This document shows positions 38,539-41,481 of a DNA stretch of 64,000 nt, in pieces; position 1 is the stretch's first letter; each line of letters begins with the position of its first letter. Source of the DNA: Ignavibacteria bacterium (GTDB lineage Bacteria > Bacteroidota > Ignavibacteria > Kapaibacteriales > UBA4661); assembly GCA_014654705.1 (NCBI GenBank), contig JACVZY010000010.1, positions 1 through 64,000 of the forward strand, given 5' to 3'. Under the pieces are notes generated by a model. It searched no databases, was not told the origin of the DNA, and saw nothing but the letters and a program-made list of their open reading frames with translations. The position numbers and the translations under genes are program-made.

Positions 38539-41481
38539 ATGCCGGAACAGCCCATTTCATCAGCGACCGAAGCCTCTGCATCAAGCACTGCCCCGCCCGT
38601 CTCGCCCATTCAATATATGCGAGGCATCGGACCACGCCGCGCTGAAGCACTGGCGCTGGCGGGCGTTCTTACGCCATCGGATTTGTTGCGTTTTTACCCA
38701 CGCTCTTACATTGACCGCAATAGCGTGCCTTCGCTTCGCGACCTGCGCACAGCCCTTCTGAACGCACAGCAGCAAGACGCTTTTTCTGAGCAGAACATGA
38801 ATTTGCAAACGGAAATCACAGTCGTCGCTTTTGTGCGGGCGGTGCGCGACAGAACCTTTGGGAAGAACCGCACAATGGTCATCGTGGAACTGGACGACCA
38901 CAGCGGCGTAAAAGCAGAAATCGTTTTTTGGCATCAGGCGGAGTATTTCAAACGTATCTTTGAAGCCGACCAACTCCTTGCAGTAAGCGGTCTTGCCGAA
39001 TATGCTTACGGAAAAATTCAATTCAATCATCCTGAAATTGAACGCATTGACCCCGACGACGCAGAATCGTACAGCAACGGACGGATTTTGCCCAAGTACC
39101 GACTCACGCAAAAAATGAAGGACGCGGGGCTGACGATGCGCGTGATGAGGAATCTCATCGCGTCGGTCATTGACCAAGAAATTCCGAACCTGCGCGAAAC
39201 CTTATCGGACGAGCTGCTCACGAAGTTTGATTTTCCCCACATTCAAGCCGCCGCACGGCAGCTGCATTTCCCGGATTCCCACGAAGCACTGGCAAAAGCA
39301 CGTGAGCGCATGAAATTTGAAGAACTATTTTTCTTTGAGATGCTGCTTGCTATGCGGCATAACGGCATAAAAAGTCTCGACAAAGCGCCCGCCATTGCCG
39401 AAAAAAGCCCACTTGCCCGCATGATGCTGGAACTTCTCTCTTTCGACCTCACCCGTGCTCAAAAGAAGGTGCTCCGGGAAATTGTGGAAGATATGCGCAC
39501 CACAAAGCCCATGAACAGGCTCTTGCAAGGCGATGTCGGCTCCGGCAAGACTGTGGTGGCGCTTTTGGGAATGTTGGCGGCTATTGATTCGGGCTTGCAG
39601 TGCGTACTCATGGCTCCCACGGAAATTCTCGCTGAACAGCATTTTAACACGTTCCGCGACTACGCGGAAAAACTAAACGCAAAACTTGCTGAACTCGGCG
39701 ACCCGCGTACTATCACGGTCGCGCAGCTTGTGGGCGGACAAAAAAAGCGCCAGAGGAACACGATTAACGAACAAATCGCCAGCGGCGAGGTAAATATCGT
39801 CGTCGGGACGCACGCAGTTTTCCAGAGTGCCGTTGAATACAAGCGTTTGGGCTTGGTAGTGATAGATGAGCAGCACCGATTCGGGGTATTGCAGCGAGCG
39901 GAATTGAAGAAAAAAGCGACGGCGAGTTTTGCGGGGGAAAGTATCATCTCAACTACACCAGAGATAGAGAAAAATACTTTGGTGGCACAGACATTCCTGT
40001 CTGTGCAGACTACACCTGAATTGCAAAAGACTCAAAGAAACTTACCACATTGGATAAAAGAGGGTTCTACATATTTTATCACATTTCGAGCGATAGGCAA
40101 ACTGAGTCAAGAAGAGCAAGCGGTAGTATTTAATCACATTATCGAAGGAAATGGAACGTACTACTCTGTCGGAGCAGCCGTCGTTATGACCGACCACGTC
40201 CATATCGTTTTGGCAAACCACGAGAACTACGATCTTAGCAGGATAATGAAAGGTATAAAAGGCGTTTCCGCAAGACTTGTAAACAAAATGCGCACCATAA
40301 CAGACAGTCCAGTTTGGCAAGATGAATCTTACGATAGAATTATTCGGAATGGACGGGAATTGCAGGAGAAAATAAAATATATTATCGAAAATCCCTTAAA
40401 AGAGGGATTGATTGGTGGGCATGAGATGTACCCGTATTTGTACGTTGCAAATGGAGATATGCAGCAGACTACACAGACAAGAATGTCTGTGCCACCATTG
40501 ACAGTAGAAACGCAGACCATAGAGACAGTACAGACAAGAGTGTCTATGCCACAGGAAGAAAAGCAAGCCGCACAGACAGAACAGCACGAAATCTCGCCCC
40601 ACATCATGGTCATGTCCGCGACGCCCATTCCGCGCACGCTTTCGATGACCGTCTATGGCGACCTTGATGTTTCCATCATTGACGAACTGCCCAAAAATCG
40701 TAAACCCATCAAAACAAAAGTTGTTTTTGAATCAAAACTGCCCGTTGTGTTTCAGTTTATCCGCGAGCAAATTGAGAAAGGGCATCAAGCGTACATCGTC
40801 TATCCGTTGGTGGAAAAGTCCGAAAAAGTCGAGGCAAAATCAGCCGTAGAACACTTTGAGCGTCTTCAGCACGAGGTTTTCCCCGACCTCAAAATGGGCT
40901 TGCTGCACGGACAAATGCTTTGGTACGAAAAAGAAGACGCGATGAAAGCGTTCAAAAACAAGGAATTTCATATTCTGGTAGCCACGACCGTCGTGGAAGT
41001 TGGGATTGATATTCCGAATGCGACCGTGATGCTGATTGAAAATGCCGACCGTTTTGGATTGGCGCAGCTTCACCAGTTGCGCGGGCGCGTGGGTCGCGGT
41101 GCCGAACAATCATTTTGTCTTTTGGCAACCAAAGACCATTTCAAATTTCATTTGGGCAAAAAAGAAAACGAGGCACAAGAACGAAAATCGTGTATTATTC
41201 GCCTCAAGACTATGCAAGAGACCAGCGACGGCTTCAAAATTGCCGAGGTTGACCTAAAATTGCGCGGTCCGGGCGACTTTCTGGGTACACGCCAATCCGG
41301 CATTCCCGAATTTACGTTTGCTGATTTGGTCAGCGATGGTGATGTTATCACACTTGCACGACGTGAGGCATTTGCGATTGTCGCCGAAGACCCACACTTG
41401 CGCAAGCCAGAAAACGCCACAATACGCACCGAATTTTTGCGTCAACACCAGAAAGACTTTACATTGCTTGATGTGGCGTAA
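38539..41481 (+). CDS. recG: ATP-dependent DNA helicase RecG with in-frame RAYT insertion
   Basis: RecG is a superfamily 2 helicase that regresses stalled replication forks and branch-migrates Holliday junctions. The usual length is about 690 residues, but this frame has 980. The wedge domain covers about 90-180, Walker A is GDVGSGKT (331-338), motif II is DEQHRFGV (443-450), motif III is MSATPIPRT (692-700), and the later motifs TTVVEVGIDIPNA and QLRGRVGRG plus the TRQSGIPEF tail are all present. Between motifs II and III, about 211 extra residues (470-680) encode a REP-associated tyrosine transposase. No stop or frameshift interrupts it. The ATG at 38539 is the only plausible start. The helicase may tolerate the insert as a loop, but activity needs testing. 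Confidence 0.93.
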   Translation: MPEQPISSATEASASSTAPPVSPIQYMRGIGPRRAEALALAGVLTPSDLLRFYPRSYIDRNSVPSLRDLRTALLNAQQQDAFSEQNMNLQTEITVVAFVRAVRDRTFGKNRTMVIVELDDHSGVKAEIVFWHQAEYFKRIFEADQLLAVSGLAEYAYGKIQFNHPEIERIDPDDAESYSNGRILPKYRLTQKMKDAGLTMRVMRNLIASVIDQEIPNLRETLSDELLTKFDFPHIQAAARQLHFPDSHEALAKARERMKFEELFFFEMLLAMRHNGIKSLDKAPAIAEKSPLARMMLELLSFDLTRAQKKVLREIVEDMRTTKPMNRLLQGDVGSGKTVVALLGMLAAIDSGLQCVLMAPTEILAEQHFNTFRDYAEKLNAKLAELGDPRTITVAQLVGGQKKRQRNTINEQIASGEVNIVVGTHAVFQSAVEYKRLGLVVIDEQHRFGVLQRAELKKKATASFAGESIISTTPEIEKNTLVAQTFLSVQTTPELQKTQRNLPHWIKEGSTYFITFRAIGKLSQEEQAVVFNHIIEGNGTYYSVGAAVVMTDHVHIVLANHENYDLSRIMKGIKGVSARLVNKMRTITDSPVWQDESYDRIIRNGRELQEKIKYIIENPLKEGLIGGHEMYPYLYVANGDMQQTTQTRMSVPPLTVETQTIETVQTRVSMPQEEKQAAQTEQHEISPHIMVMSATPIPRTLSMTVYGDLDVSIIDELPKNRKPIKTKVVFESKLPVVFQFIREQIEKGHQAYIVYPLVEKSEKVEAKSAVEHFERLQHEVFPDLKMGLLHGQMLWYEKEDAMKAFKNKEFHILVATTVVEVGIDIPNATVMLIENADRFGLAQLHQLRGRVGRGAEQSFCLLATKDHFKFHLGKKENEAQERKSCIIRLKTMQETSDGFKIAEVDLKLRGPGDFLGTRQSGIPEFTFADLVSDGDVITLARREAFAIVAEDPHLRKPENATIRTEFLRQHQKDFTLLDVA
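39981..40015 (+). repeat. REP-like palindrome, left copy
   Basis: GGTGG foot followed by a perfect 9-bp hairpin GCACAGACA-TTCC-TGTCTGTGC, then AGACTACAC. A short 5' tetranucleotide (here GTGG) next to a hairpin is the classic REP layout recognised by RAYTs. It is translated in RecG as LVAQTFLSVQTT. Confidence 0.8.
40466..40496 (-). repeat. REP-like palindrome, right copy
   Basis: On the minus strand, GGTGG is followed by CACAGACA-TTCT-TGTCTGTG and TAGTCT. It is the mirror image of the left copy at 39981 and closes the transposase segment. It is translated in RecG as QTTQTRMSVPP. Confidence 0.8.
40529..40553 (-). repeat. Degenerate REP-like copy downstream of the RAYT
   Basis: TACAGACAAGAGTGTCTATG followed by CCACA resembles the right palindrome, with mismatches in stem and foot. 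It is still in frame (QTRVSMP) within RecG. It indicates more than one REP-type insertion or duplication at this site. Confidence 0.6.

Follow-up and report, generated by a model that had tools for sequence, protein, structure and literature searches.

The recG gene of an Ignavibacteria bacterium raises the question of how a transposase domain comes to lie inside a helicase reading frame and what kind of element it belongs to. Within the window, the 64,000-nt stretch of this genome (G000) analysed here, the recG frame occupies 38539..41481 on the forward strand and is open over all 980 codons, as a sequence-only reading had claimed; no other recG was found in this genome. Pfam recognised the RecG wedge, DEAD, Helicase_C and RecG_dom3_C domains, interrupted by Y1_Tnp (E 1.1e-8), and both RecG equivalog models exceeded their cut-offs (NF008168, 824.8 bits against 718; TIGR00643, 684.6 against 659.4). 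The helicase motifs that the earlier reading had described as intact on either side of the insert were located at residues 331 (GDVGSGKT), 443 (DEQHR), 693 (SATPIPR) and 846 (QLRGRVGRG). Its assignment of the insert to the REP-associated tyrosine transposases (RAYTs) also held: residues 504–633 matched NF047646 REP_Tyr_transpos with an E-value of 6.6e-21, at 74.7 bits, which is slightly below the curated cut-off of 80, and the active-site residues are present as His553 and His555, in the sequence MTDHVH at 550, and as Tyr614. A search of the whole window genome with PF01797 gave one match, the recG copy, which is the sole RAYT detected there.

The N-terminal part of RecG (residues 1–466; 38539..39936, +) comprises the wedge/OB and the first RecA domain to motif II and its helix; it is covered by Pfam RecG_wedge and DEAD, aligns to residue 513 of Thermotoga maritima RecG (1gm5) and was modelled with a pLDDT of about 80–94 over most of its length. 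The alignment resumes at residue 519 with the C-terminal part (40588..41478, +), which runs from motif III through the second RecA domain to the C-terminus of domain 3 (Helicase_C, RecG_dom3_C). Like 1gm5, the window RecG has all helicase motifs, the wedge and the C-terminal domain; unlike 1gm5, which has five residues at this position, it has roughly 210 additional residues separating motif II from motif III. The stretch from DEQHRFG to motif III measures 236 residues in the window RecG, 264 in the full fusion of a second genome (G006) and 76 in G005, compared with 16–40 in nearly all relatives read, in agreement with the earlier description of the site as a short loop in known RecG proteins. 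The RecG loop after motif II is permissive to length change.

The RAYT domain starts at residue 500 (40036..40455, +). It is bounded by 32-nt inverted arms at 39980–40011 and 40466–40497 that are 91% complementary, and each arm contains a REP hairpin made up of a GTGG foot and a palindrome whose loop is 4 nt long. The left REP (39982..40005, +) has its GTGG foot followed by the palindrome CACAGACATTCCTGTCTGTG, is read in frame as VAQTFLSV and folds as a single-stranded DNA hairpin of −9.9 kcal/mol (z −3.7). The right REP (40472..40495, −) is inverted, with CACAGACAAGAATGTCTGTG followed by CCAC (GTGG on the other strand), an in-frame reading of QTRMSVP and a predicted hairpin of −8.2 kcal/mol (z −4.0). 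A second, degenerate right REP at 40529..40552 (−) repeats the first over 30 nt at 83% and has no significant hairpin (z −0.83). An arrangement of a RAYT between two inverted REPs is the described architecture of RAYT elements (Nunvar 2010, PMC2817692), and the GTRG-type tetranucleotide contributes to both recognition and cleavage in the cases studied (PMC8266576). The frame beside the RAYT domain has no stop on either side, and the domain apparently lacks the start and stop of its own that a free-standing gene would have.

The same REP is dispersed in the genome. The core palindrome CAGACANNNNTGTCTG occurs 74 times in G000, compared with 0 copies of the reversed control, an excess well above chance expectation. 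Full 20-nt REP palindromes number 67 in G000, 168 in G001, 208 in G007, 444 in G006 and 470 in G005, and 0–1 in the other five family members. REP doublets, which define REPINs (PMC3116915), were sampled from G006 and G005 and nearly all spanned 76 nt, with their two REPs oriented like those in recG; the spacing of those sampled from G000 varies. Two inverted REPs with a GTRG foot thus flank the RAYT, and the REP is abundant in the genome and forms doublets, which are sequence features of a REPtron. The recG insert is therefore a complete REPtron, not a RAYT domain alone. The sequence-only reading was right about the RAYT domain and the frame, but had overlooked the REPs on either side and the REPINs dispersed through the genome. 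At 11 other REP sites sampled in G000, the repeats occupy short frames or the ends of frames, and none is in the middle of a long frame, which makes recG the exception in this genome. General intragenic REP insertion of the kind seen in Rickettsia was rejected on the same 11 sites. G001 and G005 have orphan REP populations, with no RAYT of the recG kind in the assembly, and REPs can therefore persist without a RAYT. This fits, without proving, a history in which the REPs spread first and the RAYT was lost later; another RAYT, since lost, could also have made them.

Alignment to relatives showed that the insert is not strain-specific. The fusion is present in three of the eight genomes of the genus (G000, G006 and G007), which represent three species, and absent from G001, G002, G003, G004 and G005 of the genus and from G009 of the family. 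In G006 it lies on a single contig in a frame of 1060 codons, and in G007 it is broken inside the insert over two contigs that overlap in frame by 46 nt. All three fusions use the identical loop, strand and phase, with the REPs read as VAQTFLSV on the left and QTRMSV on the right, and none has a stop before motif III. The RecG core of G001 is 97% identical to that of the window; the insert is absent and the loop has its native length. The precise empty site could not be defined, since the loops of both G000/G001 and G005/G006 are too diverged for base-level boundaries. The recG loop of G005 (L008/L057) holds an unrelated dispersed palindrome with 53 copies in G005, 3 in G006 and 0 in G000. A weak REP-like remnant in the same loop is suggestive only.

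In the RAYT, differences between G000 and G007 by codon position were 0.34/0.28/0.58, with a dN of about 0.40 and saturated dS (YN00). In neutral simulations at 30% substitution, fewer than 1% of sequences remained stop-free. RecG dN/dS in the same genomes was 0.03–0.12, and nonsynonymous change in the RAYT was two to four times faster than in the N-terminal part of RecG. The HUH motif and the tyrosine are retained in all three fusion species. The RAYT domain is thus conserved as a protein, although part of this constraint may predate the insertion. An AlphaFold model of the fusion, built on 32 sequences, has a folded RecG core (Z 33.9 against 1gm5) and a folded RAYT (residues 511–617), joined by disordered linkers with pLDDT below 50 over residues 468–508 and 620–681; the left linker proper comprises residues 467–481 (39937..39981, +) and the right linker 40553..40587 (+). 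The matches listed for the full model in fold searches are all helicases, and the RAYT was therefore folded and searched separately. Modelled alone, it reached a pLDDT of 82, and its best match was 4er8, a REP-bound RAYT structure (Z 13.8, 2.7 Å over 134 residues).

Embedded RAYTs were then sought by order-, class- and phylum-wide searches, with hosts identified by Pfam. In ten cases, Y1_Tnp and Eco57I are in one frame (G168, G263, G255, G252, G197, G360, G073, G083, G091 and G623); the embedded frame of G230 is a near-copy of that of G197, and G141 has a type IIG-like frame with a RAYT that is truncated at the contig end. DUF1156 methylases are the hosts in G012 and G200 by Pfam and, by similarity of sequence, in G605. 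HsdR is the host in G531 (HSDR_N and type I motor domain), G644 (motor part) and G614 (N-terminal part, by sequence). All recognised hosts are DNA helicases, translocases or methylases, and where the contig extends far enough, the host motifs flanking the RAYT are mostly intact. Of the 20 embedded frames checked, all 20 retain the HUH motif, and only that of G623 lacks the tyrosine. Embedded loci beyond recG are spread across the phylum (L194–L202, L161, L162, L164, L165 and L245–L249). In G623 (L245), a histidine replaces the catalytic tyrosine of an otherwise intact RAYT. In G073 (L161), the embedded RAYT contains, and is followed by, long arrays of short peptide repeats; apparently, repeat DNA was inserted into the inserted domain.

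A query with the G360-type RAYT (E ≤ 1e-35) against 391 class genomes and 395 phylum genomes gave matches that were all inside longer frames (9 of 9 in the class and 6 of 6 in the phylum, 14 distinct loci), and this subfamily was apparently found only embedded, at 14 of 14 loci. Among roughly 150 best RAYT matches listed, about one in ten is embedded; most embedded cases were chosen by their long frames, so the embedded share among RAYTs in general cannot be inferred from them and was not estimated. A phage collection gave no match, and carriage by phage was rejected. In a plasmid collection, a query with the embedded-type RAYT gave three weak matches only, annotated as transposase.

How the recG frame is expressed bears on what the insert is. 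The simplest product would be a single fused polypeptide of about 110 kDa, because no intron family was found and no intein feature was seen. In line with the earlier claim that intein motifs are absent, no splicing block was seen by eye and no intein appeared among the Pfam matches of the frame; the companion claim of one polypeptide is kept here as the simplest expectation. A search of Rfam for intron families gave just one weak match, to the sRNA Ysr141 (25.6 bits against a threshold of 196), which was taken as chance, and an intron was rejected. It is hardly credible that the fusion is an artefact, be it a chimeric contig, a pseudogene or an intervening sequence removed by splicing. The genomes of the relatives were assembled from metagenomes, and the break in G007 falls inside the insert, but the junction is of the same type in three assemblies and the in-frame overlap joins the two G007 contigs; no assembly join is indicated and a chimera was rejected. 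G006 and G007 derive from differently named projects, which makes an assembly fault very unlikely. A nested gene is improbable; in that reading, translation would begin internally, at an upstream TTG or at the GTG in the REP foot, so that the RAYT would mainly be a separate protein and read-through into RecG would be incidental. In-frame TTG and GTG codons do lie just upstream of the RAYT domain, and many free-standing relatives have frames of about 150–180 amino acids. However, no ATG closely precedes the RNLPHW block in the window, and its promoter-like sites (3, compared with 1.5, sd 1.2, in shuffles) include none on the sense strand upstream of the domain. The lack of a stop before motif III extends to three species, and termination behind the RAYT would abolish RecG, for which no second gene was found in the genome.

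The history of the insertion is a separate matter. In a tree of 39 RAYTs, those of recG cluster together (94/81), apart from the free-standing ones; the free-standing members were taken from best-scoring matches only, and the grouping of methylase-embedded RAYTs in this tree is therefore no evidence by itself. Distances among the recG RAYTs are star-like (0.46, 0.46 and 0.53) and do not track RecG distances, which leaves a single vertical insertion unproven and would also accommodate repeated insertion. On balance, we regard as possible but somewhat doubtful that the loop is a hot spot hit independently in G000, G006 and G007. The lack of the insert in the closely similar RecG of G001 and the strike of a second repeat family in the same loop in G005 speak for it, whereas the identical loop, strand and phase and the clustering of the recG RAYTs, with no free-standing RAYT of this kind detected in the genus, fit better with the alternative of a single old insertion followed by losses in G001, G002/G004 and G005. 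Repeated insertion would be compatible with our main explanation of what the element is. It is unlikely that the RAYT is an inert passenger, tolerated in the loop and translated but inactive, with the REPs as relics of an earlier free-standing RAYT. The REP-rich sisters G001 and G005 do without such a RAYT, the recG loop accepts other inserts, as in G005, and the RAYT changes faster than RecG at nonsynonymous sites; yet third codon positions change most, the domain has stayed open and, in the model, foldable, and the catalytic residues are kept in all three species and, with the one exception in G623, in the embedded RAYTs of other hosts.

The explanation that we favour is that the insert is probably a selfish or domesticated REPtron that is translated within the host enzyme RecG without splicing. 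It would have entered recG on the sense strand and in frame, at the length-tolerant loop after motif II, and lost its own start and stop, so that it would now form the central domain of the 110-kDa protein. The RecG part is predicted to fold still, with the helicase conserved, and linkers that are partly REP sequence may let both domains fold. With its HUH motif and tyrosine kept, the RAYT is predicted to act like its relatives, by binding single-stranded REP hairpins and cutting them. Through cutting and joining of such hairpins, the fusion RAYT may have dispersed the REPINs in trans, and it is the obvious candidate because it is the only RAYT detected in the genome. The E. coli RAYT enzyme acts as a monomer, and an embedded copy would therefore be workable. 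The element would then be an intein-like resident without splicing, with expression supplied by the conserved host gene, and RecG could possibly bring the RAYT to forks. The earlier suggestion that the transposase could exploit fork or hairpin structures bound by RecG draws no more than indirect support from the presence of in-frame RAYTs in other DNA enzymes (Eco57I-type, DUF1156 and HsdR).

The recG insert shares with RAYT/TnpA-REP proteins and REPtrons the HUH/Tyr fold (4er8 being the nearest solved structure), the inverted REPs with a GTRG foot and the dispersed REPs and REPINs. It differs in that described RAYTs are free-standing between REPs, whereas this one lies in a host frame. Over-long RAYT proteins have been set aside as gene fusions or annotation errors (Quentin 2018, PMC6006769). 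Rickettsia palindromic elements are palindromic repeats of about 150 bp that lie in frame in host genes and are translated (Ogata 2000, as described in PMC10969869). They resemble the recG insert as in-frame, translated palindromic inserts, but the latter includes a transposase domain. Inteins with a homing endonuclease likewise place a translated DNA-cutting domain inside a conserved host enzyme. Unlike these, the recG insert has no splicing motifs that we could see and is expected to stay in the protein, and it occupies a tolerant loop, not an active-site motif. More tentatively, RAYTs of several lineages that sit in frame inside RecG, HsdR, Eco57I-type IIG and DUF1156 enzymes may form bifunctional proteins, a non-splicing counterpart of inteins in which the host would deliver a single-strand nuclease to DNA. 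RAYTs, REPINs and the in-frame palindromes of Rickettsia were already known; RAYTs embedded in host enzymes appear to be new, with no report found in the open-licence literature, and an earlier report elsewhere is possible.

RAYTs are seen as domesticated transposases, free-standing and often present in a single copy, and what the host gains from them is unclear. An embedded RAYT, whose frame is tied to that of the host gene, offers a direct view of how elements of this kind can be kept, and embedded copies persist only if the conserved host enzyme stays unbroken. A transposable element can in this way alter protein architecture through a sequence that is stop-free in the frames used. With RecG, HsdR and type IIG enzymes naturally fused to a REP nuclease, the cellular role of RAYTs would become testable with defined proteins, including any action at forks or on foreign DNA.
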